In this document: positions 8,791 to 29,167 of the stretch, in pieces
Layout of the letters: each line of letters begins with the position of its first letter
Numbering within the stretch: the first letter of the stretch is position 1
From: Candidatus Celerinatantimonas neptuna
Lineage (GTDB): Bacteria > Pseudomonadota > Gammaproteobacteria > Enterobacterales > Celerinatantimonadaceae
Length of the DNA: 64,000 nt
NCBI GenBank assembly: GCA_911810475.1
Contig: OU461276.1
Location: forward strand, 1,662,001 to 1,726,000
Reading direction: 5' to 3'
Translations under genes and position numbers: made by a program
Notes under the pieces: model-generated
Seen by the model: the letters and a program-made list of their open reading frames with translations, nothing else
Told to the model about the DNA's origin: nothing
Databases searched by the model: none

Positions 8791-9573
8791 TCATTGTAGC
8801 CATTGCGTTTTTGCCAGATCGAACACTTGGGTCGAGGATGGTTCAGATTTATTCCGGGCCAGTCCCTGACTGATATCCCCGATTAAAAAGGCTGGGTCGC
8901 ATCCAGCTCTGACAAGATCAGTTCCATCAGGTAAGACAATGGCACTTTGCCCTGTATATATTAAACCGTTTTCTTCTCCACAAAGATTGGCATATACGGT
9001 TACTAAGCCATTTTCTAAAGCCCTTGCTCGGACTAATGATAATGGAACCTGAGTATAGGGGTACATATTGGCAGTCGGATTAAAGAGTACCGATGCTCCA
9101 GACTGGGCCATATGGCGGGCCACTTCTGGAAATTCGATGTCGTAACAGATTGAAAGTCCACAACGCTTGCCGGCCAGTTCAAACGTTTTAAATTCATGGC
9201 CCGGGGTAAACAGCACTTTTTCTTCGTCACCAAATAAAAAAACTTTATGGTGGCAGTGGGCAATTTCTCCTTTTTTATCAATAGCAACGGCACTGTTAAA
9301 AACAAATTCATCAACTTTTTCGGGAAATCCACAGATAATGGCTGTTTGATGTCGCCTGGCTATCTGGCGAATTCGGGTGATACCTGGCCCGTCAATTGGT
9401 TCGGCAAGCTGGCGTAGCTGGCCTTTGAGATTATATCCTGTTAAAAACAATTCGGGGAAAATCAGTACATTGACATCAAATGCCTTTGCTCCTGCGGCCA
9501 GGTGCTCGATGGTCGCCAGATTTGCAACTTTATCGGCGTATGTCGCTGCTTGTTGGCAGAGCATTATTTTCAT
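8791..9573 (-). CDS. Carbon-nitrogen hydrolase (nitrilase superfamily)
   Basis: 260-aa cytoplasmic amidase/nitrilase-type enzyme with the Glu-Lys-Cys catalytic triad: Glu in LIFPELFLTGYN (about residue 42), Lys in HHKVFLFGDEEKV, and Cys in GLSICYDIEFPEVAR. The family hydrolyses amides, carbamoyl groups or nitriles. The start lies 11 bp after the pseG stop codon on the same strand, so it is probably the third gene of a pseF-pseG transcript. It may therefore act on an amide in the sugar or acyl pathway, or it may be a bystander. The substrate is unknown. Confidence 0.82.
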   Translation of the reverse strand: MKIMLCQQAATYADKVANLATIEHLAAGAKAFDVNVLIFPELFLTGYNLKGQLRQLAEPIDGPGITRIRQIARRHQTAIICGFPEKVDEFVFNSAVAIDKKGEIAHCHHKVFLFGDEEKVLFTPGHEFKTFELAGKRCGLSICYDIEFPEVARHMAQSGASVLFNPTANMYPYTQVPLSLVRARALENGLVTVYANLCGEENGLIYTGQSAIVLPDGTDLVRAGCDPAFLIGDISQGLARNKSEPSSTQVFDLAKTQWLQ

Positions 9574-9584
9574 GATGGATCCTG

Positions 9585-10601
9585 TTATCTCAGCAAATGA
9601 AGTAATTTTGTAGCGATGCGTATTGCACCTAAGCCATCAATCATGGTTTGTGCATGTTTCCGGAAAAGATTACGATGGCTTTCTAAAGATTTCAATGCGC
9701 TGTCTAATTGCTCCGGTTGTGATAAATCATCTAAAGAGAGAAGTTCAGCCAGCTGATAGCGACGAATCACTGCTTCATTAAACACCTGATTATCCACAAT
9801 AGGAATGGCAAGTGTCGGAATTCCGATGCAGCATCTTTCCCAGGTCATCCCTCCGGCAGCACCTATCGTAAAGTCACATTGTGCAAGTAATCGGGGCATA
9901 TTGGATTCATGGCGTTTGATGTGAATTGCGAGTGAACTGAATTGGACAAGTTCCAGCAAATCCGGCCAATCAGGATTGGCAGCCCCAGCGATAATGTGCC
10001 ACTGGATGGATTTGGCCCTTTCAAGTTTTAGTAGCGCTTCTAATGTGGTTTTGGTCGCATGGACCGGGTCTGCGCCGCCAAAACAGATGAGCCCCTGACG
10101 AAATGGGCCACAGTTTGATCGCCGGTACGAGTGAAACTCTGGTGCAATCAGTGCGAACCGGCTTCCTAACCAAAACTGACACCCCTGATTAACTGATGTG
10201 TAGTCGGTGCTCTGTCGAAGTGGGCCTTGATCCAATAACCAGTTACACTGATGGGAGCGGTTGGCCAAATCATCGATCACTAATAATGGTATTTTCCCAT
10301 AGAGTTGGTTTTCCCAGTTGGCATCTAAACCGTAATGATCGACAATCACGACGTCAGATTGCCAGTCCAAAATGGGATCAATTTTGCTTTGAAGCTGGGC
10401 AGCTTCAAGATATATGTGACCTCGTTTGACGACCCATTCTGCTAACGCGGGGGGTAACTGGTGGCAGTAAAAACAACACGTTAAGGTTTGATTATTGTCC
10501 TTCGCATGTTGGGATAAAGCATCGGCCAAAGTCAGACAACGCATGAGATGGCCTGTGCCAATCTGGCTATTGGCATCTAATCGAAACAGAATCTTAATCA
10601 T
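9585..10601 (-). CDS. pseG: PseG-like UDP-sugar hydrolase of pseudaminic acid synthesis
   Basis: 338-aa GT-B-fold hydrolase that removes UDP from the 2,4-diacetamido-trideoxy-altrose intermediate before condensation to pseudaminic acid. The N-terminal FRLDANSQIGTGHLMRCL and VIVDHYGLDANWE motifs are characteristic of PseG, and CFGGADP plus AAGGMTWERCCIGIPT form the C-terminal nucleotide-binding part. It overlaps the end of pseF by 4 bp, indicating translational coupling. The other pathway enzymes (PseB, PseC, PseI) are not in this window. A legionaminic-type variant cannot be excluded. Confidence 0.85.
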   Translation of the reverse strand: MIKILFRLDANSQIGTGHLMRCLTLADALSQHAKDNNQTLTCCFYCHQLPPALAEWVVKRGHIYLEAAQLQSKIDPILDWQSDVVIVDHYGLDANWENQLYGKIPLLVIDDLANRSHQCNWLLDQGPLRQSTDYTSVNQGCQFWLGSRFALIAPEFHSYRRSNCGPFRQGLICFGGADPVHATKTTLEALLKLERAKSIQWHIIAGAANPDWPDLLELVQFSSLAIHIKRHESNMPRLLAQCDFTIGAAGGMTWERCCIGIPTLAIPIVDNQVFNEAVIRRYQLAELLSLDDLSQPEQLDSALKSLESHRNLFRKHAQTMIDGLGAIRIATKLLHLLR

Positions 10602-11290
10602 TGGGCATGGAGCGCCTGATAAAGGAGTTCGGCAAGCTGCCAGTCTTCGGGTGTATCAATATCAACGACTCGATAACGCGGTAAAATTAATGCTTGGCCG
10701 CTACCGCTAAAGGTGCCAACGCCGGATAACCAAGCTTCACGGGTTCCCCAATAAAATTGTCCTGCATCTTGAAATGCCGGCTCAAGATCCTGGCTTCTCT
10801 GGCCGATATATTCAGGATAGAAAGGCCGCATAAAGCCTTGTTGGTCTCGTTTTAATGCGCGTTGAATCGGAAATGGAAACTCAGCGGCAGAGAAGACATA
10901 ATCAGCACCGCTTTGGGTTAGTAGCGAAAGTCCCTTGGCCAGTGTTTTTGCATCTAATAAAGGGGTGGTTGCATAGATACAGCAATAGATTTTATCGCGA
11001 AGCTGACATTCGCGATCTAAACGCTGAATCGTGTCAATGACAACTGGGGTTGTGCCGACAAAATCATCGGCAAGTGTCGGGTCCCGTAAAAAAGGAACAT
11101 CAGCTCCCAGACTTTGAGCAACTTCGGCGATTTGTGGGTCGTCGGTGGAGACAACGACAGAAGAAAAGCAACCACTCTCAAGAGCTGAATTAACGGCATA
11201 ACTGATCATTGGCTGGCCGCAAAAGGATTTTAAGTTTTTATGTGGGATCCGTTTACTGCCGCCCCGTGCCGGTATAATGGCGATGGCCAT
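10598..11290 (-). CDS. pseF: Pseudaminic acid (nonulosonate) cytidylyltransferase
   Basis: 230-aa CMP-sugar synthetase that activates a nonulosonic acid as CMP-Pse. The N-terminal IIPARGGSKRIPHKNLKSF is the CTP-binding signature, and VVVSTDDPQIAEVAQSLGAD is also typical of the CMP-NeuA/PseF family. I chose the ATG at 11290 (MAIAIIPARGG) because AAAGGGA precedes it at good spacing; an upstream ATG at 11311 lacks support. It is the first gene of the leftward pseF-pseG-nitrilase set and diverges from the GNAT gene at 11402. Confidence 0.87.
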   Translation of the reverse strand: MAIAIIPARGGSKRIPHKNLKSFCGQPMISYAVNSALESGCFSSVVVSTDDPQIAEVAQSLGADVPFLRDPTLADDFVGTTPVVIDTIQRLDRECQLRDKIYCCIYATTPLLDAKTLAKGLSLLTQSGADYVFSAAEFPFPIQRALKRDQQGFMRPFYPEYIGQRSQDLEPAFQDAGQFYWGTREAWLSGVGTFSGSGQALILPRYRVVDIDTPEDWQLAELLYQALHAQ

Positions 11291-11401
11291 AGCTGTCCCT
11301 TTGTTGATCAAAGATGATAGTCAAGAGTAAGGTATTATGGAAAAGATCACCAATAAAGTAACTCGTTATTGTGTAAAGATGAGTCGATATAAGGAGTTTT
11401 T

Positions 11402-11959
11402 TTGAATCAGGAACCCGCTGCCCGAATAAGTGCCTATGGCGTCATGTTAAGGCCAGTATGCCCTGCGGATCTTCCATCGTTACGACGTTGGCGAAATAGT
11501 GAACCGGTTCGTTGTCAGATGCTCAGTCAGCAGATCATTTCCGCTCGTCAGCAGCGATGCTGGTTTGAGAGAATGTATGATGAACCCTCGCGGCGGCATT
11601 GGTGTGTAGAGGTAAATGGTTTGCGGACCGGTTATGCAAATCTGAAAGGATCTGCTTCAGGTAATTTGGCGCACCAGGCCTGTGCTGATAGCGGATTATA
11701 CCTCGGTGATACGCCGGTTCGTCATGGGTTGCTGGCAACAGCGGTTGCATTGTGTCAACTAGATGCTGCATTTGAATTATTACATATTAAAATGATTAAG
11801 ACGCAGGTGAAATGTGATAATTCGGCGGCTTTAAGGCTCAATAGCATGTTGGGATATCAACGTGGTATGCAAGAGCATGAATTTATAACTTTGACGTTGG
11901 TTGCCAAAGATTACTTCGCAGCCCGTCAGTCATTAATGAGATTTTTCCGCCATGTCTGA
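11402..11959 (+). CDS. GNAT N-acetyltransferase, PseH-like
   Basis: 185-aa GNAT-fold acyltransferase. The start region VMLRPVCPADLPSLRRWRNSEPVR matches sugar-amine acetyltransferases such as PseH, which acetylates the 4-amino group of the UDP-altrosamine intermediate. NSAALRLNSMLGYQ near the C-terminus is the usual acetyl-CoA-site helix. Translation starts at TTG behind a strong AAGGAG. It is the first gene of the rightward operon, divergent from pseF, and overlaps the ACP start by 8 bp. The adjacent acyl carrier protein raises the possibility that the donor is acyl-ACP rather than acetyl-CoA (inference). Confidence 0.72.
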   Translation: MNQEPAARISAYGVMLRPVCPADLPSLRRWRNSEPVRCQMLSQQIISARQQRCWFERMYDEPSRRHWCVEVNGLRTGYANLKGSASGNLAHQACADSGLYLGDTPVRHGLLATAVALCQLDAAFELLHIKMIKTQVKCDNSAALRLNSMLGYQRGMQEHEFITLTLVAKDYFAARQSLMRFFRHV

Positions 11960-12194
11960 ATTGAAACCTTTAGCTGATGTTTTTGCCGAGGCGCTTGCTG
12001 TTGATGTTGCCCTGATCCAGGGCGATTTGCAATATCAGGGGATCCCACAATGGGATTCGGTCGCACATATGCAGCTGATTGCTGCAATTGAAGATAGTTA
12101 CGATGTCATGCTCGATACTGATGACATTATTGATATGAGTTCATTCTCCAAGGCCCGAGACATATTGGCTAAATATGGCGTTAGTGTGTCATGA
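11952..12194 (+). CDS. Acyl carrier protein
   Basis: 80-aa acidic protein with the phosphopantetheine attachment serine in PQWDSVAHMQL (about residue 36), followed by a typical ACP helix II and III. It is a dedicated carrier, not the house-keeping AcpP, since it lies inside an overlapping operon with a reductase, an AMP ligase and LuxE/LuxC-like genes. It presumably holds the acyl chain handled by those enzymes. Its end overlaps the next start by 4 bp. Confidence 0.85.
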   Translation: MSELKPLADVFAEALAVDVALIQGDLQYQGIPQWDSVAHMQLIAAIEDSYDVMLDTDDIIDMSSFSKARDILAKYGVSVS

Positions 12195-12940
12195 CCGGTA
12201 TGCTGGATGGTCGACATGTTTTGATTACTGGGGCTTCCCGGGGGATCGGTCGGGCGATTGCTCAGGTTTTTGCCCGTGAACAGGCGACTTTGTATCTCAA
12301 CGGCCGGGATAAAGACAGCTTAGTTGCTCTTGCGGATGAATTGTCTGCACATTATGAGGTGGATTGCTCGGTATTAGCATTTGATGTGGCTGATAGTGAT
12401 GCGGTTAAAGCGGGTTTTCGAGAATTATTTACACAAACGAAAACGCTGGATGTGCTCATCAACAATGCGGGTCTGCGCGATGAAGCACTGCTTGCTATGG
12501 TGACTCCCGAGAGCCTTGAACAGACCTTTGCCGTCAATAGTTTCGGCGCGTTTTACTGTGCCCAGTATGCGGCCCGAATGATGCGTCGCAATGGTGGTGG
12601 CAGTATCGTGAATATGGCATCGGCGATGGCATTGGGTGGTTGTCCGGGGCAAAGTGTATATGCGGCCAGTAAGGCGGCTCTGGTGGGAATGACCCGCTCG
12701 CTGGCGAAAGAGTTGGCTGGCGATAAGATTCGGGTGAATGCCATTGCACCGGGCTTAATTGAAACGGATTTGGTGGCTGATTTAACCCCGGCTCAGCGTG
12801 ATGTGCATATCAGGCAGATTACCTTGGGGCGAATTGGTCAAGCAGAAGAAGTGGCTCGCTGCGCACTGTTTTTAAGTTGTGACTGGTCAGGCTATATGAC
12901 CGGCGAGCTGTTACATGTAGATGGAGGGATGGCGCTTTGA
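12191..12940 (+). CDS. SDR-family 3-oxoacyl-ACP reductase-like protein
   Basis: 249-aa Rossmann-fold short-chain dehydrogenase similar to FabG. Cofactor motif GASRGIGRA is at about residues 14-22, NNAG near residue 90, and the catalytic Ser/Tyr/Lys set lies in NMASAMALGG and YAASKAALVGM; NAIAPGLIETDL is the usual post-catalytic motif. With the ACP immediately upstream it probably reduces a beta-keto acyl-ACP to the 3-hydroxy form. A role on a sugar substrate is possible but less likely. The stop codon overlaps the TTG start of the ligase gene. Confidence 0.85.
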   Translation: MTGMLDGRHVLITGASRGIGRAIAQVFAREQATLYLNGRDKDSLVALADELSAHYEVDCSVLAFDVADSDAVKAGFRELFTQTKTLDVLINNAGLRDEALLAMVTPESLEQTFAVNSFGAFYCAQYAARMMRRNGGGSIVNMASAMALGGCPGQSVYAASKAALVGMTRSLAKELAGDKIRVNAIAPGLIETDLVADLTPAQRDVHIRQITLGRIGQAEEVARCALFLSCDWSGYMTGELLHVDGGMAL

Positions 12941-14304
12941 ATTTACTCAGGCAGATGGAACAGTATCAGGGCGAAGCGATTTGGTATCAGGGCGCTTCAA
13001 TCACCTATCCACAGCTTCTTGAACAAGCTGAGATGATGGTAAAGATGTGGGGGGGAGAGCGACAGCTAATTGCATTAAAGGCTCACCATCACCCGGATAC
13101 CATTGTGATCTATCTGGCTGCTTTACTGGGGCGACATCCTCTGATTCTGATTAACCCGAAATTAGATGAACAGAGTCAGCAGGCGATTATTGAATCGTAT
13201 CAGCCAAACTGGGGGTATTTTGAACGTGGCCAGAGCGGGGTTTCGCTTCACACTAAGCCTCATAATCTGGATCCTGAACTGGCATTATTACTGACGACAT
13301 CCGGCTCCACTGGGGGCGTGAAACTGGTGCAGCTCAGCCTCGCTAACCTTTCGGCGAATGCAGCTTCAATTGCGGACTATTTGCAGATGGATTGCCACTC
13401 CCGGGTCATCAGTGCATTACCGCTTGCCTATTCATATGGATTATCGTTACTTAATAGTCATCTTTGGTGCGGTGGTTCGATGGTTCTGACCGAACCCGAC
13501 CCTATGCGCCGGGACTTCTGGCAATTGCTCAAAGAACAAGGTGTCACACAGCTTGCCGGTGTCCCTTATAGTTATCAAATGTATGAACAGTTGCGAATTC
13601 GCCGCAATGACTGGCCTGACCTGCAAGTTCTGACACAAGCCGGAGGACATCTTGATCGAAAACTGGCCCAGACGTTTGCGCAATGGGCATCCGCGCAGGG
13701 GAAAGATTTTTGCGTGATGTACGGGCAGACTGAAGCCACCGCCCGAATCGCCTATGTGCCGGCAGGTGAAGTGCTTTCCCGCCCCGATAGTATTGGGGTT
13801 GCAATTCCCGGCGGTGAATTAATGATTGTTGATGAACAGGGCCAACCATTACTGGATGACAATCAGGAAGGGGAGCTGGTTTATCGGGGAGCAAATGTCA
13901 TGTTAGGCTATGCCCAGACGCTCTCTGATCTGGCAAAACCGTCACGACCGGGCGTACTCAAAACAGGTGATTTAGGTTACCGGGATGCCGATGGCTTTTT
14001 CTATGTTACCGGGCGCTTAAAACGCATGATTAAACTGGCTGGGACCAGAACTGCGTTAGATGCGCTGGAGCGGACGTTATCAACACCCGAATTACCGGTG
14101 GTTTGTTGTGGCCATGATGATGCTCTGCGCATCGCGGTGACTTCAACAGAACACGTTCTCGACGTGGAAAAGCATCTGCGGGAGCAGTTGGGGCTGCATC
14201 CTCGTTTATTTGCTGTAGCCTGTATTGAGTCACTGCCTCATACCGCCAATGGCAAGTTGGATTATCCCCGTTTAGCGCAGTGGATTGAACATGATGGCTC
14301 TTGA
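12937..14304 (+). CDS. AMP-forming acyl ligase (ANL superfamily)
   Basis: 455-aa adenylating enzyme. It contains the P-loop-like TTSGSTGGVKLVQLS (about residue 120), MYGQTEATARIAYV, KTGDLGYRDADGFFYVTGRLKR and the C-terminal catalytic lysine in HTANGKLDYPR. It is shorter than acyl-CoA synthetases (500-560 aa) and resembles the stand-alone adenylation proteins that load an acid onto an ACP. The start is TTG at 12937 within the SDR stop region, with GGAGGG upstream at good spacing. The acid activated is unknown; the neighbouring ACP is the likely acceptor. Confidence 0.8.
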   Translation: MNLLRQMEQYQGEAIWYQGASITYPQLLEQAEMMVKMWGGERQLIALKAHHHPDTIVIYLAALLGRHPLILINPKLDEQSQQAIIESYQPNWGYFERGQSGVSLHTKPHNLDPELALLLTTSGSTGGVKLVQLSLANLSANAASIADYLQMDCHSRVISALPLAYSYGLSLLNSHLWCGGSMVLTEPDPMRRDFWQLLKEQGVTQLAGVPYSYQMYEQLRIRRNDWPDLQVLTQAGGHLDRKLAQTFAQWASAQGKDFCVMYGQTEATARIAYVPAGEVLSRPDSIGVAIPGGELMIVDEQGQPLLDDNQEGELVYRGANVMLGYAQTLSDLAKPSRPGVLKTGDLGYRDADGFFYVTGRLKRMIKLAGTRTALDALERTLSTPELPVVCCGHDDALRIAVTSTEHVLDVEKHLREQLGLHPRLFAVACIESLPHTANGKLDYPRLAQWIEHDGS

Positions 14305-15358
14305 TGCGCTGTTAAATGCGCCGGTTTATGGTTTGCCTCAGGTGGAAAAACAAGCCTTGTTGCTGGCCCGGCTAAATGAGCTGACGGATCATCATGCACG
14401 TTGCTGTCAACCGTATGACCGGTTATTACAAGCGGGGAATTTTCCCCGGTTTGCGACGCGTGAAGATGAATTGATGCCGTTGGCTATTCGTCTGTTTAAA
14501 CATTTGAAATTAAAAAGTATCGATGATGCCGATGTCTTCAAAACACTGACATCCTCAGGCACAAGTGGTGCAAAATCGCAAATTTTTTTGGATCGGAATG
14601 CTTCAGCACTGCAAAGTAAGGTTTTGGTCAAAATCTTGCAAAATTGGGTCGGTCGACAACGGTTGCCCATGCTGCTGGTTGAGCAGCCGGCACTGCTTTC
14701 CAGCCGACAAGGGTTTTCTGCACGGGGTGCCGGGGCGCTTGGCCTTTCTTTTTTAGGGCGTGATCACAGCTATGCTCTGGATGAACAGATGCAACCCGAC
14801 TGGGCTTTAATTGAACGCTTTTGTGAGCGTTACCATAATCAACCCGTGATCATCTTCGGCTTTACGTTCATGCTCTGGCAGTGTCTGTTAGAGCCGCTGG
14901 CGAAAAGAGGGCTCAAATTACCACTTAATCAAGCCATTATATTCCACAGTGGCGGCTGGAAAAAATTAGAGCATCTGGCAGTTAGTCATCAGGCTTTCAA
15001 TGATCGCTGCCATGATTGGATAGGGAGCGAAACAGTCCATAATTTTTATGGGATGGCCGAGCAGACAGGGAGTATTTTTGTCAGTTGTGAACAAGGGCAT
15101 CTACACACCCCGGTTTTTTCAGACATTTTAATTCGCCATCCAAAGAGCATGGCGGTGCAACCCCGGGGTGAGGCTGGTCTCATTCAGGTTGTCTCCGGGC
15201 TGCCTGAAAGTTACCCGGGCCATAGCTTACTGACGGAAGATTTAGGGATCTGGCTGGGGGATGATGATTGTCCTTGTGGACGCAAAGGTCGCTATTTCAA
15301 AGTGCTCGGACGAGAGCAAACAGCAGAGGTGCGTGGATGCAGCGATACATTCAGTTAA
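14291..15358 (+). CDS. LuxE-like acyl-protein synthetase
   Basis: About 356 aa, of the LuxE acyl-protein synthetase/acyl-CoA reductase-partner family, which adenylates a fatty acid and passes the acyl group to a cysteine and then to LuxC. It shows the ANL-type SSGTSGAKS motif (about residue 92), FYGMAEQTG, and the C-terminal DCPCGRKGR plus RGCSD with the conserved Cys. The ATG at 14291 (or 14294) overlaps the upstream ligase gene; a TTG at 14285 is also in frame. No luciferase genes are nearby, so a bioluminescence role is excluded within this window. It likely supplies the LuxC-like protein encoded next. Confidence 0.78.
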   Translation: MMALDALLNAPVYGLPQVEKQALLLARLNELTDHHARCCQPYDRLLQAGNFPRFATREDELMPLAIRLFKHLKLKSIDDADVFKTLTSSGTSGAKSQIFLDRNASALQSKVLVKILQNWVGRQRLPMLLVEQPALLSSRQGFSARGAGALGLSFLGRDHSYALDEQMQPDWALIERFCERYHNQPVIIFGFTFMLWQCLLEPLAKRGLKLPLNQAIIFHSGGWKKLEHLAVSHQAFNDRCHDWIGSETVHNFYGMAEQTGSIFVSCEQGHLHTPVFSDILIRHPKSMAVQPRGEAGLIQVVSGLPESYPGHSLLTEDLGIWLGDDDCPCGRKGRYFKVLGREQTAEVRGCSDTFS

Positions 15359-16515
15359 CGACCGAACAGTACCAGCAGATTGATGTGTTATGCCCGGCAG
15401 ATGAGGGGCTTCTTTCGTTTAACCGGATGCCACTCCCATGTTATGCGCCGCTTCTTCTTGAGTTTATTCGCGTTTTTAGCCATGAACTGTCTTTACTTGA
15501 GACCGTCCCCAGTGCCAGAGCTCTGGGGTTTTTCTTAAGGGAGCGTGTGTTGCACCATCAAATTGAACAACGCCTGGCTCAGGGAAAACGAGCCCCGCTG
15601 GGTGTTAGTTTTCATTTAGTGCCAGCTAATGTTCCAATGGTTGCGTTTCATTCGGCGATTGCTTCTTTATTGCAGGGAAATCCAACACTCGTGCGTTTAT
15701 CGAGCCGGGAACTGCCTGATCAACAGGCGGTGATCAAGGTTTTAAACCGTTTACTGGCTCAGCCACGCTGGCAGATGGTTGCTGAGCGGCTTCGGATCAT
15801 TCGCTATCCTCATGATGAGGGCCTGACACAATCTCTGAGTGATTATTGTGCCAGCCGGGTGATTTGGGGCGGGGATCAAAGCATTGCCGCCATTCGTCGT
15901 TTACCTTTGCCCGCCGGGGCGAAAGAGCTGACATTTGCCGATCGCCAGTCACTGGCTTTATTTGACGAAGTGGCATTACGCGAACTGCCTGCACGGGCAA
16001 TTCAGTTGCAACTACAGCAACTGGCTGTCGATATTGGTCAGTTTGATCAGCAGTCCTGTTCATCTCCGGGACTTTTGTTGTGGATTGGCCGTGATACAAC
16101 GATGCGCCAGCGGGTTTTTCGTCAGTTGGCCCGTTTTATACCCGATGAACTCAAACGGGCCAGCGAGCAATTGTTGCAACTCCAACAGGCGGCGATTGAT
16201 GGGGACATCAGCCATTATCAACAAGCAGATAGGATTGGTTGGGGCGAATTATCATGGGGAGAGTCATTGCCGATACGCCGTGGCGGCACACTTTATTGGC
16301 AGCAGGTGGAACAGCTTGAAACCTGGCTTGAGACGATGGCAAATTATCAGACCTGTGTCATGGTCGGTGGCTCCCGCCAGAGCCTGCGCGATCAGCTGCT
16401 GGAATACCCCTCTCTTCGGGTGGATCGGGTCGTGGCACCGGGGCAGGCTTTAGCCTTCGACTGGTACTGGGATGGCGTCGATCTACTCAGTGAACTGTCC
16501 CGGGCACAGCGGTAA
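15337..16515 (+). CDS. LuxC-like acyl reductase
   Basis: 392-aa aldehyde-dehydrogenase-fold protein of the LuxC acyl-CoA reductase family, which reduces a protein- or CoA-bound acyl group to the aldehyde with NADPH. The putative catalytic Cys is in QQSCSSPGLLLWIG (about residue 241). I chose the ATG at 15337, preceded by AGAGGT, inside the end of the LuxE-like gene; the longer ORF from 15268 begins without support. It is the last gene of the operon. Together with the ligase, ACP and LuxE-like protein it suggests that a fatty or hydroxy-acyl group is reduced to an aldehyde, probably for decoration of a glycan. Confidence 0.78.
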   Translation: MQRYIQLTTEQYQQIDVLCPADEGLLSFNRMPLPCYAPLLLEFIRVFSHELSLLETVPSARALGFFLRERVLHHQIEQRLAQGKRAPLGVSFHLVPANVPMVAFHSAIASLLQGNPTLVRLSSRELPDQQAVIKVLNRLLAQPRWQMVAERLRIIRYPHDEGLTQSLSDYCASRVIWGGDQSIAAIRRLPLPAGAKELTFADRQSLALFDEVALRELPARAIQLQLQQLAVDIGQFDQQSCSSPGLLLWIGRDTTMRQRVFRQLARFIPDELKRASEQLLQLQQAAIDGDISHYQQADRIGWGELSWGESLPIRRGGTLYWQQVEQLETWLETMANYQTCVMVGGSRQSLRDQLLEYPSLRVDRVVAPGQALAFDWYWDGVDLLSELSRAQR

Positions 16516-16523
16516 ATCCGTGC

Positions 16524-16540
16524 TTGCCATAGAATGGCAA
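16524..16540. terminator. Short hairpin after the LuxC-like gene
   Basis: TTGCCAT and ATGGCAA form a 7-bp stem with a 3-base loop, 8 bp beyond the stop codon. No T run follows, so this is only a weak terminator candidate. The rest of the 16516-16738 gap between convergent genes holds nothing I recognise. Confidence 0.35.
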
Positions 16541-16738
16541 TGGCGGCCCAGATTTACCTTGGATTTGACCTGAGTCCCATATCAGAAAACAAGCCTGACA
16601 CATCACGGAACTAATCGCGATGCATTGTGACTTCTTATCCCAAGTTGGGGTGATTAAACTCAGTCATCAAAACTGCTCTGTGTGATGTGCTCACGTAAAG
16701 GTTATTTGGTTCATCATAAAATTGAGCCGATACTCTGA

Positions 16739-17524
16739 TTACCAATAATTGAAATAGATGTATTTGGATATTTCGGTTCTTTTGTGAAGCTCTTTAACCG
16801 TTAGCTCAGTTTTTATGGGAAGGTGCCCTGCCTGAATCTGTTTCCATATCGCTTGCTTATTTGGGATGGTCAGTTTACAACTAGAAATGCCGATAAAAAT
16901 CAGGGGATGCCATTGTCCATCAGTTAATATGATATGATGAATTCCCAGCCGATTGAGATCGTTAATTGAATAGTACCAGCCCTGATCGCCGCCTCTCTGA
17001 CAGGAAAATTGTCGTTGTTGACCCAGTGTTGGCAGATTTGGGTTGACTCCGATTTCATGATAGAAAGCCGTTTCTGCTTTTCGCCACTTGTTAATGAATT
17101 TTGGTAAATGCTGATGAGGATTATCGTCAGCATTGGTTCGCTGATAAGCACCGCCATGCCATCCTAAAATATCATTTTTAGCTAGATATTTATGGTTTCC
17201 GGCTGGGAAAATGTAATTAGCGCATGAAGATGTACAATAGTTAACAACTTTCACATTCAGATGATGTTGAAAGATCCAGCGACCAAATTTGATCGAAGAC
17301 ATGACTTCCCCACCAAGACTTTCAATCATAACTTCATGAATGGTGTGGCCTTTAGCTAAGGCAATGGCACGATTGACTCGTTTGGGCGTTAAGTCTCCCT
17401 GATAAATAAGTTGATGCTGCTTAATATAGATAGCTTGAGGTAGAAATGTATCTTGCTTTAATGCTGAACAGCCTGTTAAACAGGTGAAAAAAGTAAGCAT
17501 GAATAATATATATGAAGTTTTCAT
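16739..17524 (-). CDS. ClpP/crotonase-fold lipoprotein of unknown role
   Basis: 261 aa with a lipoprotein signal (about residues 1-19, lipobox LTGC). The mature part resembles the periplasmic ClpP-like proteins of the COG3904 type. It has an oxyanion-like IESLGGEVMSS, then CTSSCANYIFPAG, where the second Ser-containing turn is in the position of the catalytic Ser, and ILGWHGGAY with a candidate catalytic His. It would be an envelope hydrolase or a ClpP-fold binding protein; protease activity is not proven. It is transcribed against the surrounding glycan genes and is AT-richer than them, suggesting separate acquisition. Confidence 0.65.
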   Translation of the reverse strand: MKTSYILFMLTFFTCLTGCSALKQDTFLPQAIYIKQHQLIYQGDLTPKRVNRAIALAKGHTIHEVMIESLGGEVMSSIKFGRWIFQHHLNVKVVNYCTSSCANYIFPAGNHKYLAKNDILGWHGGAYQRTNADDNPHQHLPKFINKWRKAETAFYHEIGVNPNLPTLGQQRQFSCQRGGDQGWYYSINDLNRLGIHHIILTDGQWHPLIFIGISSCKLTIPNKQAIWKQIQAGHLPIKTELTVKELHKRTEISKYIYFNYW

Positions 17525-18085
17525 TAATAAGCCTGAAGGATTTTAAATCTGCGAAGTTAATTAAAAGTGAATTCGTTGTTTGTATATTAGGGTTAAATTG
17601 GTTTTCTTGTTATTCCTGTTTTTATTTTATTTTTTATAAATTGTCTGTGGAATATTGAATAAATAGAATTGTGTATATTAATTGAGACATATATTGAGGG
17701 TTTTCCTTTATATAATTTAGGTAATTATACGTTATATAAATGAATTAAAATAAACTAAAAATATAATGTGATTAGTTATCTGAGATGAAGGGATGTCTTT
17801 TTAAAATTATGAGTGTTTGATGAAAGACGTTTAATATTAATTTTCCCATAAATCATGTTAACTATCTAACTGAAGATAGTATCATCCTTTTAAATTGACA
17901 ACAGTTAATAAACCAAATGATCTATTCACTTAATTAATTGTATACTATCCTTATGTGTTTTTTTGTCAATTAGATTATTTACAATATTAACATAGTCTTT
18001 AATTTTTTATTAAAAACTGGCCTGATTTTTGAATATGATTACGAATCATGTAACAATTTTGACGTTTCCTCATCGGGAAGAGATT
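17525..18085. other. AT-rich intergenic gap inside the glycan region
   Basis: About 560 bp of very AT-rich sequence between the divergent ClpP-like lipoprotein and GT2 genes, with no credible ORF. A TTGACA at 17895-17900 and an extended -10-like TTGTATACT around 17938-17946 are possible plus-strand promoter parts, but their spacing does not form one standard promoter. CTATCT/AGATAG near 17863-17880 could form a small hairpin. Such composition often marks nucleoid-protein-silenced, transferred DNA (inference). Confidence 0.45.
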
Positions 18086-19039
18086 ATGAAACTATCAGTG
18101 ATTGTTCCGGCCTATAATCTGGAAGACTATATTGGGCCGTGCCTTGGGAGCTTGCTTGGTCAGGTGTGCCATTTTGAATATGAGGTGATTGTTTGTAATG
18201 ACACCTCAACGGATGGCACTGCTTTAGCCATTGAGAAGGTTAAAGACTGCTATCCTGGGCTTTTTGTGATGACCAATCCAGTGAATCTGGGGTTAGTGGC
18301 AACAATGGCCCGGTTACTTGAGGCGGCCAGTGGGGATTATATTGCGTATCTGGATGGCGATGATCTTGCTTTGCCGGGTAAGTTGCAGGTGTTGGTCGAT
18401 TATCTTGACGCTCACCCTGATTGTGCGATTGCTTATCATGAAGCAGAAGTATTTGATAGTGATACGGGCCAGACTCTTAAGCATTATAGCTGTGATTTTT
18501 ATAATGCCTGCTATATCCCTAAACAGGCGGGTATCGAGCATTTGATTCGTTACGGTACTTTTTTACAGGCCAGTAGTATTGCTTTTCGTCGCCATCATTC
18601 ATTAATTAGAGCACTAGAGCATGATTGCTCGATTATTTGTGATTATCCCTGGCATATTATGAATGCAGGATTTTTACAGGGTTCGATTGATCGTATTGAT
18701 ACAGTGTTAGGGCGCTATCGTGTCCATTCTAATAGTTTTGGTGCGCAGACGGCCCGTGATACCCGCCGGCGTTTAAAAGTGACCGATGAGTTGGAAAAGG
18801 CCTGTCGTTTAGGTGAGCGCTTTGGTGTGGAGCAAGCAATTGTTGATGCCGGTGTGGCTCATGTGCGTTTTGCTGCAGCGCTTTATTTTCTTCGTCAGGG
18901 AGAAGATGCATTATTTAGCGATATGATTCAGGCTTCAGCTAATGGTGATTTATTTTTTGACGACAGGCATCGCCATGCCGTCGATTTACGCCGTAATCCT
19001 CAGGCTGTCCGGCAGATGCTGGGGTGGAATATCGCATGA
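18086..19039 (+). CDS. Family 2 glycosyltransferase
   Basis: 317-aa GT-A-fold glycosyltransferase. It has MKLSVIVPAYN at the N-terminus, VIVCNDTSTDGT, and the nucleotide-sugar/metal motif YLDGDD (about residues 90-95). The GT2 domain ends near residue 220 and is followed by a helical tail. The ATG at 18086 is chosen over 18029 because GGGAAGAG precedes it and the GT2 fold begins there. It overlaps the next gene by 4 bp and is the first of four genes that probably assemble or modify a surface glycan. The sugar donor is unknown. Confidence 0.83.
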   Translation: MKLSVIVPAYNLEDYIGPCLGSLLGQVCHFEYEVIVCNDTSTDGTALAIEKVKDCYPGLFVMTNPVNLGLVATMARLLEAASGDYIAYLDGDDLALPGKLQVLVDYLDAHPDCAIAYHEAEVFDSDTGQTLKHYSCDFYNACYIPKQAGIEHLIRYGTFLQASSIAFRRHHSLIRALEHDCSIICDYPWHIMNAGFLQGSIDRIDTVLGRYRVHSNSFGAQTARDTRRRLKVTDELEKACRLGERFGVEQAIVDAGVAHVRFAAALYFLRQGEDALFSDMIQASANGDLFFDDRHRHAVDLRRNPQAVRQMLGWNIA

Positions 19040-20247
19040 TGCAGGTTCGCTCGATAGGTTTTGATGATCTGGACGGGCAGCCTTATCAGATCTTAGGAAC
19101 AGGTGGTTTTACTCTCGAGTTACTTTCTCAGTTAAAAGCCCATCATCAACCGTTACCCATATCCATCTTAAATCCGCATGATGGTGGTGTGACAGATATG
19201 GAGGGGATTGCGGTTGTCGGGTTGGCACAGATCCAACCTGATTTGCCGATTGTTCTTGGATCGGATGTTTTTCAGCCTCAGCTAATCGGTCATTTGCAGC
19301 GAGTTGGTATTTTGCAGGCTACACTTTGGGATCTTAGTGATATCGTTCAGTGTGTTCGTCAGCACCAGCCTCAGGTTGCACTGTCCCGGGAGAATATGAC
19401 ATCTCGCTATATGGTGATGTTTACGGTTGGCGCAAGTGTTCCTATAAGTGCCTGGATGGGAAATTTCAGGGCATGGCTCAACGGGCGGGGTATCGAGCTG
19501 ATTGCCCGGCATCCACTGGATCTGGCGGATGATCATTTTTTGAAGAATGCGCAGGGATTGCTAGCCTGGAATGGCAGCAGTCCATTGTTTGATCCTCTTA
19601 AAACCCAATTACAGCGTCTTGGGTTATCTTTAACCTATGCCGAATGTGGATTTTTCCCACAGAAAGAGCATTTTTATTTTGATAGGGCTGGCGTTAATCT
19701 GGCTTCACAGCTTTGGATCGATGATCTGAGTTGGTTGGAAAAACGCCACGAAATGCTGTGTTGTGAGCGTCGCAATGCATTATTTGGCGATCTTACTCTT
19801 GTGGATAAGGGCTACTTATTTGTGCCTTTACAGATTGAATCGGACAGTAATATTCAACTTTATTCGCGTTTTAAGCAGGGTATGCAAGAATATATTGACT
19901 GGATTGCCATTCAGGAGCCGGATCTTCCGATTTTATTTAAACCCCATCCGAAAGATCCCAATCCAGAGCGTTATCAAATGCCAGCTAATGGAACACTGAC
20001 ATCAGACGATACGTTGATGCTGATTGCACAAAGTTCGCGGGTAAGGGGAATTACCTCATCCGTTCTGTTTGAAGCTGCGTTGCTTGGAAAAGAAGTCAGC
20101 TGTGATGGACAAAGTTTGTTAAACCATCCATATGGTACGCCATTACAGGTTGTGACCGCATTAATTTCCCGTCAGTACCACCGGGAAGAAACTGAATTTT
20201 TGGACGAACGATTTGAACGTTTTACCCATTTTGCCTTCAAGGAGTGA
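19036..20247 (+). CDS. Unrecognised protein with GT-B-like C-terminal motifs
   Basis: About 403 aa, not confidently assigned. The N-terminal half (ILGTGGFTLELLSQL, VVGLAQIQPDLPIVLGSD) looks like a Rossmann-type nucleotide- or sugar-binding region. The C-terminal half has ILFKPHPKDPNPERY and SSRVRGITSSVLFEAALLGKE, a pattern seen in capsule, CDP-glycerol or polysialic-acid-type GT-B transferases, where these segments bind the donor. The start is the ATG at 19036 (or 19039) overlapping the GT2 stop. Translational coupling with GT2 suggests they act on the same glycan. Function is inferred only at the level of a probable glycosyl- or phosphosugar transferase. Confidence 0.5.
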   Translation: MMQVRSIGFDDLDGQPYQILGTGGFTLELLSQLKAHHQPLPISILNPHDGGVTDMEGIAVVGLAQIQPDLPIVLGSDVFQPQLIGHLQRVGILQATLWDLSDIVQCVRQHQPQVALSRENMTSRYMVMFTVGASVPISAWMGNFRAWLNGRGIELIARHPLDLADDHFLKNAQGLLAWNGSSPLFDPLKTQLQRLGLSLTYAECGFFPQKEHFYFDRAGVNLASQLWIDDLSWLEKRHEMLCCERRNALFGDLTLVDKGYLFVPLQIESDSNIQLYSRFKQGMQEYIDWIAIQEPDLPILFKPHPKDPNPERYQMPANGTLTSDDTLMLIAQSSRVRGITSSVLFEAALLGKEVSCDGQSLLNHPYGTPLQVVTALISRQYHREETEFLDERFERFTHFAFKE

Positions 20248-20249
20248 TT

Positions 20250-21362
20250 ATGAGCAAATTGGAGCTGCAATACTGTCAGGATGCGACAGTACTGCAGCAA
20301 TTGGAGCAATGGGATGCTCCGCGGTGTAGTTTAGCCTGGGAATTGGATCCCTGTTGTGTCGGGTTATCAGAGATTACCAGTCATGACCATCTGCAATATC
20401 TAACCAATATGGAAGCTGATAGCTGCCTGCATGCGATGTTTAACGCATTGGTGGTTGGCGGCCATCTGTCACTCAGTGTACCTGATTTAGATGCCTTAGC
20501 CAGGCAATGGCTCAAAGCAGACTGGAATGAATCAACCCTTCGTGATGCAACCTCAGATGCTCAACAGGCGTTCCAGGGGATTTTTGGTCCCCAGGAGGGG
20601 ACGAATCCGATGTGGCCGGACTATCAGGCCCGGCATCGGGCCAGGCATCTGAGTGGTTACAATAGTCGGCGGTTGAAGTTTTTGCTGGAACGGGCTGGTT
20701 TTATTGATGTCGATGTGCAAGCGCGCCAGGGCACTCTTTATGCCGATGCGACTAAATCGATGAATCAGGGGGAGCGGCAGATTGCGACAAACTATACTCA
20801 AATCCGCGTGGATCATTTATCCCGTTATCGCTTTGCCGTTGAGCAGTTTTCAGGTGAAGAAAGGTTGAAGCTTCTCGATCTGGCATGTGGAATCGGTTAT
20901 GGCTCGAAGTTGTTGGCAGAGCAGTTAAAGGCGCATGTAAATGGCGTTGATATTGACCGTGGAGCCATTGATTATGCGAAACACTACTATGCTCATCCCC
21001 AAGTTCACTATATCTGTCAAGATGCCAGGGAGCTTGCTATTGAGCATGATTCTTTAGATGGTATTATTTCGTTTGAAACGATTGAACATATTGATTTTGC
21101 TAAAACGTTACTGGCCCATTTTTATCAGTGGTTAAGACCGGGTGGGCGATTGATTGCTTCAACGCCAAATCAGGCCATGCTTCCATATGATGAAAAACGT
21201 TTCCCATTTCATCTGCGTCATTACCATGTGGATCAGATGCAGGCTTTACTTGAAGATGCAGGGTTTGAAATTGAACAAATTCAGTTTCAAAGTGACCAGT
21301 ATAGCGAGCAAATCAGCAAACAACCGGGTGAGTTTACTATAATGGTGGCAATGAAAGGATGA
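20250..21362 (+). CDS. Two-domain protein: degenerate plus intact class I methyltransferase
   Basis: 370 aa. Residues 1 to about 165 resemble the C-terminal two-thirds of the 176-aa protein at 21455 (shared: LTNMEADSCLHAMFNALVVGG versus LTCMEADAALADWFRALEPG, then SDA, and a SGYN-R-FLL segment) but lack a glycine-rich SAM motif. The rest is a complete SAM methyltransferase: LLDLACGIGYGSKLL (motif I), VDIDRGAIDYA (motif II), and a WLRPGGRLIASTPN stretch. The ATG at 20250 follows AAGGAG; a GTG at 20244 is less likely. It probably methylates a sugar hydroxyl, with the N-terminal domain serving as a partner or binding module. Confidence 0.65.
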   Translation: MSKLELQYCQDATVLQQLEQWDAPRCSLAWELDPCCVGLSEITSHDHLQYLTNMEADSCLHAMFNALVVGGHLSLSVPDLDALARQWLKADWNESTLRDATSDAQQAFQGIFGPQEGTNPMWPDYQARHRARHLSGYNSRRLKFLLERAGFIDVDVQARQGTLYADATKSMNQGERQIATNYTQIRVDHLSRYRFAVEQFSGEERLKLLDLACGIGYGSKLLAEQLKAHVNGVDIDRGAIDYAKHYYAHPQVHYICQDARELAIEHDSLDGIISFETIEHIDFAKTLLAHFYQWLRPGGRLIASTPNQAMLPYDEKRFPFHLRHYHVDQMQALLEDAGFEIEQIQFQSDQYSEQISKQPGEFTIMVAMKG

Positions 21363-21454: not shown

Positions 21455-21985
21455 TTGAAAGCGGTATATGTGGGGTGCGGTTCGGATCGCCGCAAAGGAT
21501 TTATTCATTGTGATCTTCGGGCGTTGCAGGGGATAGATATTGTCTGTTCGGCATGGCATTTGTCTGATTATATCGGGGGGGTGTCACTGATTTATTCCCG
21601 GCATATGCTCGAACATCTTACCTGTATGGAAGCGGATGCGGCGCTGGCAGACTGGTTTCGGGCGTTAGAGCCCGGTGGACACATTGAAATCTGGGTTCCG
21701 AATATGGATTATCATATTCGTCAGTGGCAGAACGCCATATGGGATGATGGCCATTTAGCGGATCCCCATTCAGATGCCCGGCACTCACTGGCTGGTTTTT
21801 GGGGATGGCAACGTCAGTGCCGTCCCGGGCGTGATGACTATGAGACCAGTTACTGGGATGTTCATAAGTCAGGATATAACAAACCCCGAATACAGTTTTT
21901 ATTGCAACGACAGGGGTTTATGAATATCGAGACCGAAATCGTTGATGATGTGCATCTTCGAGCATGTGCGCAGCGGCTGGAGTGA
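21455..21985 (+). CDS. Small methyltransferase-like protein (COG4627 type)
   Basis: 176 aa from a TTG start behind AAGGACGGGG. It keeps a reduced SAM-binding N-terminus (MKAVYVGCGSDRRKGFIHCDL), then RHMLEHLTCMEADAALADWF and LEPGGHIEIWVPNMD, as in short predicted SAM-dependent methyltransferases found in polysaccharide clusters. It is homologous to the N-terminal domain of the protein encoded just upstream (20250-21362), so the pair arose by duplication and fusion. It is the last gene of the glycan region, convergent with fhlA. Confidence 0.6.
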   Translation: MKAVYVGCGSDRRKGFIHCDLRALQGIDIVCSAWHLSDYIGGVSLIYSRHMLEHLTCMEADAALADWFRALEPGGHIEIWVPNMDYHIRQWQNAIWDDGHLADPHSDARHSLAGFWGWQRQCRPGRDDYETSYWDVHKSGYNKPRIQFLLQRQGFMNIETEIVDDVHLRACAQRLE

Positions 21986-28549: not shown

Positions 28550-29167
28550 ATGAACCGTTTTGTCATTGCCGATCCCAGTTTATGTATCGGTTGCAATACC
28601 TGTATGGCCGCGTGTTCGCAAGCTCATCAACAGCAAGGTTTGCAAAGTGAGCCAAGGTTGGTAGTGATGCGAAGTGCCGATGAATCGGCGCCGCAGATGT
28701 GTCATCAGTGTGAAGACGCACCGTGTGCCACGGTCTGTCCGGTCGGAGCTATTCGACATGAAAACGATGCCATCGTATTAAATGAAAGTTTATGTATTGG
28801 CTGTAAGTTATGTGCAATTGCTTGTCCTTTCGGCGCAATTACTATGAGTGGCTCTAAGCCATTGGATATACCTGAGGGCGTCAATACACCGTTGGCGGCG
28901 CCAGCACCAAGAGAACCCAGACCCATCAGCCCATTACTGGACTGGCGGCCGGGTATTCGCTCGGTTGCTGTGAAATGCGACCTTTGCAGTTTTCGTGAGC
29001 AGGGGCCTGCCTGTGAACAAGCGTGCCCAACCGATGCGATCATTCAGGTAAGCGATGAAGCATTGGAACATGCGAATCAACGTAAACGCCGTCAGGCATC
29101 ACTGCCAAAACCAGATGAGTGGTCAACATCTTCATCTACGGCATTTAAAGGGGAGCGGAATCTATGA
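28550..29167 (+). CDS. hyfA: Hydrogenase-4 electron-transfer subunit HyfA
   Basis: 205-aa ferredoxin-like protein with four 4Fe-4S binding motifs (CIGCNTCMAAC, CHQCEDAPCATVC, CIGCKLCAIAC, CDLCSFREQGPACEQAC), the same length as E. coli HyfA. It would carry electrons between formate dehydrogenase and the hydrogenase on the cytoplasmic side. It is the first gene of the ten-gene hyf set; its end overlaps hyfB by 4 bp. Confidence 0.93.
   Translation: MNRFVIADPSLCIGCNTCMAACSQAHQQQGLQSEPRLVVMRSADESAPQMCHQCEDAPCATVCPVGAIRHENDAIVLNESLCIGCKLCAIACPFGAITMSGSKPLDIPEGVNTPLAAPAPREPRPISPLLDWRPGIRSVAVKCDLCSFREQGPACEQACPTDAIIQVSDEALEHANQRKRRQASLPKPDEWSTSSSTAFKGERNL

Follow-up and report, generated by a model that had tools for sequence, protein, structure and literature searches.

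The genome of Candidatus Celerinatantimonas neptuna carries, in a 64,000-nucleotide stretch of contig OU461276.1 that we analysed as a whole (the window; C1:1662001-1726000 of the 4.13 Mb, single-contig genome), an operon of six genes encoding a GNAT N-acyltransferase, an acyl carrier protein (ACP), a short-chain dehydrogenase/reductase (SDR), an AMP-forming ligase of the ANL family, and relatives of LuxE and LuxC. The genes run head to tail on the plus strand at 11402-16515, divergently from pseF and pseG, genes for pseudaminic acid (Pse), a sugar with which flagella are coated. We propose, with a probability of roughly 0.58, that this cassette builds a dihydroxybutyryl group (C4H6O3) on its dedicated ACP and that the PseH-type transferase puts this acyl on the flagellar Pse precursor. 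The proposal draws on the gene content, on the recurring linkage of the set, on a single-copy Pse pathway that is split between two loci, on aligned cysteines in LuxE and LuxC, and on the PseH fold of the GNAT. The cassette is real and recurring and has already been listed in Aeromonas, enterobacteria and Dickeya.

The cassette in other bacteria

LuxC-like genes are present in 16 of 119 genomes, the host's own included. For a wider comparison we assembled 96 sources, consisting of the window, 15 regions of relatives and 80 named loci, the latter being the best 80 of 529 confirmed LuxE relatives. The locus query was an alignment of twelve LuxE sequences, nine of which came from stretches that hold PseG or PseF, and linkage to pse genes is over-represented because this search favoured pse-linked members. 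Genes were called as the longest non-overlapping open reading frame (ORF); some real genes are lost to antisense ORFs in this way, and all counts are lower bounds. Three duplicate loci (L020, L021 and L027) are included in counts over 96 sources and in the GNAT alignment below, and left out of counts over 93 and of the LuxE tree. Across the 96 sources, the ANL ligase is found in 90, LuxE in 86, LuxC in 83, the ACP in 79, the SDR in 72 and the GNAT in 55; a DegT aminotransferase is found in 52, a PseI-like protein in 47, PseG in 45, a PseB-like protein in 40 and PseF in 34.

The exact order GNAT-ACP-SDR-ANL-LuxE-LuxC is present in 26 of the 93 sources, the window included, and the gene set is therefore not a product of chance. 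PseG or PseF accompanies it in 24 of these 26, and six further sources have the SDR and ACP in swapped order. A search for the co-occurring set beside pse genes, suggested by the original prediction as a check, bore out the association: all six genes are found in 40 of the 93 sources, 31 of which also contain PseG or PseF. The ligase, LuxE and LuxC occur together in 73 of the 93, joined by PseG/F or DegT in 60 and by a GNAT or LbH transferase in 55. Gammaproteobacterial loci often begin with pseB-C-F, followed by pseG and pseI in either order and after them by GNAT-ACP-SDR-ANL-luxE-luxC; in other lineages, DegT and LbH genes accompany the set in place of pse. Mapping the label "pse" onto the LuxE tree takes 7 changes, versus 27.6 in shuffles. 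Based on the linkage counts and this tree label, we conclude that amino-sugar genes and N-acyltransferases are the usual companions of the cassette.

A two-subunit transketolase is encoded inside or beside the ACP-ligase-LuxE-LuxC set at L025:13367-15153 and also in L061, L071, L088, L091, L096, L097, L102, L106 and L114; both of its parts are present in 17 of the 93 sources, and this enzyme could extend the aldehyde made by LuxC. A plasmid search with the LuxE of the window returned 35 records, each below 60% identity, including 14 from Priestia and 10 from Rhizobium. E. coli genomes gave zero matches to a single query, the Kosakonia luxE, in the distant search mode.

Enzymes of the operon and the Pse pathway of the host

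The GNAT matches its Pfam family (E 1.1e-8) and scores 59.3 bits against the NCBIfam PseH model (TIGR03585), under the cut-off of 93.1; of the ten PseH matches in the host genome, it ranks first. A fold search with its AlphaFold model (pLDDT 93.4) placed H. pylori PseH (4ri1) at ranks 1-3 with TM scores of 0.75-0.80, many other GNATs following close behind. When a profile built from the GNATs of the module was compared with PDB sequences, the top match was C. jejuni PseH (4xpk, 1.2e-19).

PseI is over cut-off in 52 of the 119 genomes. Among these, PseH over cut-off is found in 13 and the six-gene set in 11 (once with a ligase-LuxE fusion), and none has both, against an expected co-occurrence of 2.75 (hypergeometric P 0.028, kinship not corrected for). 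An apparent natural fusion is seen at L029:10838-13471, where an 877-aa ORF matches both ligase and LuxE. All 13 PseH proteins over the cut-off have a glycine just ahead of helix a3. In the H. pylori PseH structure, the main chain of Gly103 is reported to bind the CoA pyrophosphate (PMC4363471), and in our own reading of the alignment the conserved glycine would correspond to this residue. For the module GNATs we compared 44 rows, after removing two non-module GNATs from 46 and keeping L064 and L112 despite a motif misfit. Leu, Val or Ile is aligned at the PseH glycine in 42 of the 44, in motifs such as YRGNILAF or VRHGLLATA, and the stretch Y100-N140 has a length of 41 in 43 of the 44, versus 39, 40 or 42 in PseH. 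An aliphatic residue in this column would be compatible with a carrier protein as the acyl donor of the GNAT, at the level of a hint. We also considered a Tyr-to-Asn change at the general-acid residue of PseH and dropped it, because most over-cut-off PseH proteins of relatives are without that Tyr as well.

For the ACP, Pfam gave zero hits and two NCBIfam ACP models match weakly (6.4e-5 and 1.1e-4). The SDR scores 238 bits against NCBIfam FabG, below the cut-off of 296, and matches the FabG structure 2p68 at 3e-50. The top two PDB matches of the ANL ligase are a nonribosomal peptide synthetase protein and DltA, with luciferases and CoA ligases ranking next; these two nearest solved relatives are loaders of carrier proteins, and by this likeness the ligase probably loads the ACP of the operon. 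In alignments with the solved LuxC-LuxE pair 7xc6, the Cys of RGCS in LuxE stands opposite that of KGCS, and DQQSC in LuxC stands opposite DQQAC. We take these cysteines to be the catalytic ones, and the enzymes of the operon look intact from their sequences. Luminescence was rejected as a function, in agreement with the original prediction that light production is not the purpose of the operon: LuxE and LuxC reach 48 of 550 bits and 39.5 of 750 bits, respectively, of the NCBIfam cut-offs for the luminescent equivalogs, and no luciferase is present among the Pfam-tested products of the window, luxA and luxB themselves not having been searched for.

In the host genome, PseF and PseG are each single over cut-off and both lie in the window, pseG being the sole PseG match of any score and pseF the sole copy above the cut-off. 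PseI is likewise single over cut-off and stands alone at C1:353 kb, and PseB and PseC are located at 360-363 kb beside a Maf gene, FliS and two flagellins (PseI and all of these within C1:353-372 kb), at a distance of 1.3 Mb from the operon to the flagellins. A search with both Maf domains found one Maf gene in the genome. With these single-copy genes divided between the operon and the flagellin locus, the Pse destined for flagella is expected to go through the operon. On the LuxE tree, the window joins its congener, Tolumonas and Aeromonas in a starred clade of 10 rows, apart from Aliagarivorans, a grouping that suggests that the island was acquired by transfer.

The proposed acyl group, its assembly and the alternatives

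A candidate for the acyl group comes from published masses. In Aeromonas AH-3, a strain that has the cassette, the flagellin Pse derivative is reported at 376.14 Da, with an "unknown 102 Da moiety" at the chain end and a total of 1491.5 (PMC7874193). Mono-acetyl Pse (274.1165) plus C4H6O3 (102.0317) gives 376.148, and the whole AH-3 glycan with a second C4H6O3 sums to 1491.49. We enumerated formulas up to C8, N3, O5, S1 and P1 with a tolerance of 0.02 Da, and C4H6O3, the composition of dihydroxybutyryl, is the most plausible acyl among those within it, C3H6N2O2 being barely inside too. In V. cholerae O1, perosamine is acylated with (S)-2,4-dihydroxybutyryl (PMC6562859), and 2,4-dihydroxybutanoic acid is reportedly activated by RfbL, with either CoA or the carrier RfbK as recipient (PMC12208996). 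The flagellin of A. caviae Sch3 carries plain Pse5Ac7Ac (PMC9290775).

Five loci contain a gene of the lactate dehydrogenase (LDH) family, directly behind luxC in three (L073:12256-13209, L091:12286-13290 and L115:12295-13317) and close by in the others (L099:13130-14083 and L113:13507-14463), and all five proteins have Arg at the malate-type position. Arg where lactate enzymes carry Gln is the residue tied to malate specificity, and malate is a fair candidate for the acyl precursor.

Based on these data, we propose the following route. LuxE would activate a C4 dicarboxylate, most probably malate, at one of its carboxylates and pass the thioester to LuxC, which would reduce it to the semialdehyde. 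The SDR would reduce this aldehyde to 2,4- or 3,4-dihydroxybutyrate, and the ANL ligase would load the other carboxylate onto the ACP, before or after reduction. The GNAT would then acylate N4 of UDP-4-amino-4,6-dideoxy-beta-L-AltNAc, and PseG, PseI and PseF would convert the acylated sugar to CMP-Pse5Ac7(dihydroxybutyryl), which Maf would transfer to flagellin and an Fgi-1-like GT2 glycosyltransferase would extend. The substrate, the isomer, the order of steps, acyl-ACP as the donor and flagellin as the target are what we infer from the evidence above. The original prediction had been an ACP-borne hydroxy- or aldehyde-bearing substituent for a nonulosonic acid; the hydroxylated form is favoured by the linkage of the six-gene set (31 of 40) and by the dihydroxyacyl mass, and the aldehyde-bearing option is without support. 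It had also held the acyl chemistry to be undescribed, and in the open-licence literature we indeed found no paper that describes it or names the acyl group of a LuxE/LuxC-type cassette, and nothing on dihydroxybutyryl with nonulosonic or pseudaminic acid that assigns the group to Aeromonas flagellin.

If true, the proposal would give an identity to the 376 Da sugar of Aeromonas flagellin, and perhaps to its 102 Da cap as well, would add a hydroxyacyl branch to Pse biosynthesis, and would make one carboxylate-reducing acyl-ACP cassette common to different amino-sugar pathways. For the lux-like genes that recur in flagellin islands of Aeromonas, marine Gammaproteobacteria and enterobacteria, it predicts an addition of 102.032 Da to mono-acetyl Pse. 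A bolder form of the proposal, which we regard as doubtful, is that LuxE and LuxC act on the carrier and reduce the distal carboxyl of a dicarboxyl-ACP, that the GNAT represents an unrecognised class of acyl-ACP-dependent sugar N-acyltransferases, and that in Bacillota, Bacteroidota, Melainabacteria and some enterobacterial versions the transketolase adds a C2 ketol unit to the aldehyde. In that case, a single cassette would decorate surface sugars with a family of chain-extended polyhydroxyacyl groups.

A number of observations weigh against dihydroxybutyryl transfer by a PseH-type enzyme. Our literature search found no assay or deletion for any enzyme of the set, and 13 of the 73 loci with ligase, LuxE and LuxC show neither a PseG/F nor a DegT gene. 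The lone GNAT sequence of the window matches only spermidine acetyltransferases in the PDB, weakly, and no PseH; its likeness to PseH is one of family profile or fold, not of the single sequence. FdhC, a related hydroxyacyl GNAT, has been solved with CoA. Shifting a one-residue gap places Ala at the PseH glycine column in 32 of the 44 module rows, and some non-module GNATs also lack this glycine; because the column depends on the placing of that gap, the glycine argument is only a hint. Two LDH-like proteins that we tested score best as L-LDH, one of them over that cut-off. O-methylglyceryl shares the composition C4H6O3. A. hydrophila AH-1 has an unexplained 403 Da derivative (PMC4691044); this strain and Sch3 are both described as single-sugar strains, and the gene sets of both were not checked here. 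Lastly, for the Pse derivative on the lateral flagellin of AH-3, a review uses the words "probably phosphorylated" (PMC3958885); Pse5Ac7Ac plus HPO3 computes to 396.09, unlike the reported 376.14.

Among the alternatives, the one that survives best keeps the same logic but has the ACP carry a different short hydroxyacyl for Pse, such as 3- or 4-hydroxybutyryl or O-methylglyceryl. Bacterial amino sugars and nonulosonic acids that bear hydroxybutyryl or malyl groups are known (PMC3210612, PMC3927599), and the SDR is FabG-like. However, hydroxybutyryl would make a sugar of 360.15 Da, not 376, Pfam finds no ketosynthase domain in the six operon products, and O-methylglyceryl needs an O-methyltransferase and leaves the carboxylate reductase without a role; we consider such a group possible but rather unlikely. 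It is distinctly improbable, in our view, that the cassette serves lipopolysaccharide or capsule in the host instead of flagellin, with the pse link reflecting a shared sugar supply. The distance to the flagellins, the capsule-synthesis-like protein and methyltransferases downstream, and the other loci that pair the set with DegT and LbH without pse genes all point in this direction. They are countered by the single PseF, PseG and PseI, by the position of PseB, PseC and the only Maf beside the flagellins, which routes flagellar Pse through the operon, and by the presence of a FliS or Maf gene together with LuxE in 23 of the 93 sources. Luminescent LuxC and LuxE work on long-chain acyls, which counts in favour of fatty acids being channelled into a fatty acyl or aldehyde on the flagellar glycan. 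This liposugar, proposed by the Aeromonas, enterobacterial and Dickeya authors (PMC7874193, PMC4875605, PMC7575072), is weakened by the AH-3 glycan mass, which adds up without a fatty chain, by the low equivalog scores of LuxE and LuxC, and by a LuxE that is nearer a tetronate-type fusion (BLASTP 190 bits) than the solved LuxE (phmmer 43.5 bits, from a different program), and we think it very improbable.

Gene layout and comparison with known systems

The ORFs and their Pfam and NCBIfam matches agree with the six overlapping genes divergent from pseF and pseG that were first predicted, in strand and in place (Table 1). The successive overlaps are 8, 4, 4, 20 and 22 bases, the last assuming that LuxC starts at ATG 15337, which is likelier than the first TTG. 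The start of the GNAT gene, TTG 11402, is preceded by AAGGAG, and inspection by eye only found nothing convincing as a flagellar sigma-28 site upstream of it. A gap of 90 bases divides the operon from pseF-pseG, and directly behind pseG is a carbon-nitrogen hydrolase (8791-9573) that is outside the families common to five or more loci. On the 3' side of luxC, a hairpin (16505-16600) is moderately more stable than shuffles (z -2.2), and between luxC and the GT2 gene there is a 261-aa minus-strand ORF (16739-17524) without a Pfam or NCBIfam match. Elsewhere in the window, a 4Fe-4S protein and a Proton_antipo_M membrane subunit (28550-31191) head a long plus-strand gene run that is probably a hydrogenase or complex I-like cluster.

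Table 1. Genes of the operon and its surroundings, with positions in the window
Feature	Position	Strand	Evidence
PseH-like GNAT N-acyltransferase	11402..11959	+	Pfam GNAT; NCBIfam PseH; PseH fold
Acyl carrier protein	11952..12194	+	NCBIfam ACP 6.4e-5; Ser in QWDSV
FabG-like SDR (carbonyl or 3-oxoacyl-ACP reductase)	12191..12940	+	Pfam 4e-65; NCBIfam FabG; PDB 2p68
AMP-forming (ANL) acyl ligase	12937..14304	+	Pfam AMP-binding 1.3e-41; PDB matches
LuxE-like acyl-protein synthetase	14285..15358	+	Pfam LuxE 3.2e-46; RGCS Cys aligned with 7xc6
LuxC-like acyl reductase	15268..16515	+	Pfam LuxC 3e-29; DQQSC aligned with 7xc6
pseF, CMP-pseudaminic acid synthetase	10598..11311	-	NCBIfam 309 bits, above cut-off
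pseG, UDP-sugar hydrolase	9585..10601	-	NCBIfam 244 bits, above cut-off
GT2 glycosyltransferase, Fgi-1-like	18029..19039	+	Pfam GT2; 45-54% identity to GT2s behind luxC elsewhere
Capsule-synthesis-like (PF05159) protein, possible further glycan enzyme	19024..20247	+	Pfam
Methyltransferase, possible glycan methylation	20244..21362	+	Pfam
Methyltransferase-like, weak	21455..21985	+	23.1 bits, below cut-off 27

Among published systems, the Aeromonas Group II flagella glycosylation island (98 strains) comes closest. It is listed as pseHFGI, orf1-3, luxE, luxC and fgi-1 (PMC7874193), with the six genes in the order of the window and pse genes adjacent. In Aeromonas a GT2 gene stands behind luxC; the GT2 of the window resembles, at the identity given in Table 1, genes that closely follow luxC in loci of Aeromonas (L039 and L042-L045), Shewanella, Paraglaciecola and Marinobacterium but is not directly adjacent to its own luxC. 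Aeromonas Group II also has pseF, pseG and pseI adjacent together with Maf-2, whereas in the window only pseF and pseG are adjacent and pseI, pseB, pseC and Maf are far off. The single Maf of the genome and the opposite-strand ORF between luxC and GT2 are further differences. The expectation that similar sets lie near flagellin glycosylation loci of Shewanella and Aeromonas holds for Aeromonas and for S. mangrovi and Shewanella sp. NIFS-20-20, but S. oneidensis differs. We rejected its sfmABCDE genes as the same system; they encode NeuB, a thiamine pyrophosphate enzyme, an SDR, a methyltransferase and an ATP-grasp protein, with C9-C11 moieties of 236, 250 and 264 Da (PMC3765264). Enterobacterial flagellin islands carry the set (PMC4875605), as does Dickeya zeae together with transketolase genes (PMC7575072). 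Like the window, these islands have the ACP, FabG, ligase, LuxE and LuxC; unlike the window, Dickeya has VioA as aminotransferase and the added transketolase, and no pse genes are given for it.

The tetronate genes of V. cholerae O1 (VC0248-VC0252, rfbKLMNO), compared by description, comprise ACP, ANL, LuxE and LuxC homologues and a dehydrogenase, as in the window, and their product is a C4 dihydroxyacyl whose mass fits, the acceptor there being perosamine. In that set, LuxE and LuxC presumably form a single protein and the dehydrogenase is of the Fe-ADH type, whereas the window has a separate LuxE and LuxC and an SDR instead. A set in a genome of the same family as the host (L031:2105-15036) looks like the tetronate type, with ACP-ANL-FeADH genes and an 825-aa LuxE-LuxC fusion near NeuB, NeuC, LegC and NeuD genes; the LuxE parts of the window and L031 are 32% identical. 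The LuxC/LuxE fatty acid reductase of the lux operon is homologous, with aligned cysteines, and the window proteins score far below its equivalog cut-offs. By analogy, the nearest demonstrated logic is that of the P. syringae viosamine island, in which an ACP, an SDR and an acyltransferase give N-3-hydroxybutyryl viosamine on flagellin, with mutants characterised by mass spectrometry (PMC3927599). Unlike the window, this island has a ketosynthase III (VioS), and the ligase, LuxE and LuxC are absent among the seven genes given for it; like the window, it combines an ACP, a FabG-like SDR and an N-acyltransferase for an amino sugar of the flagellin glycan.

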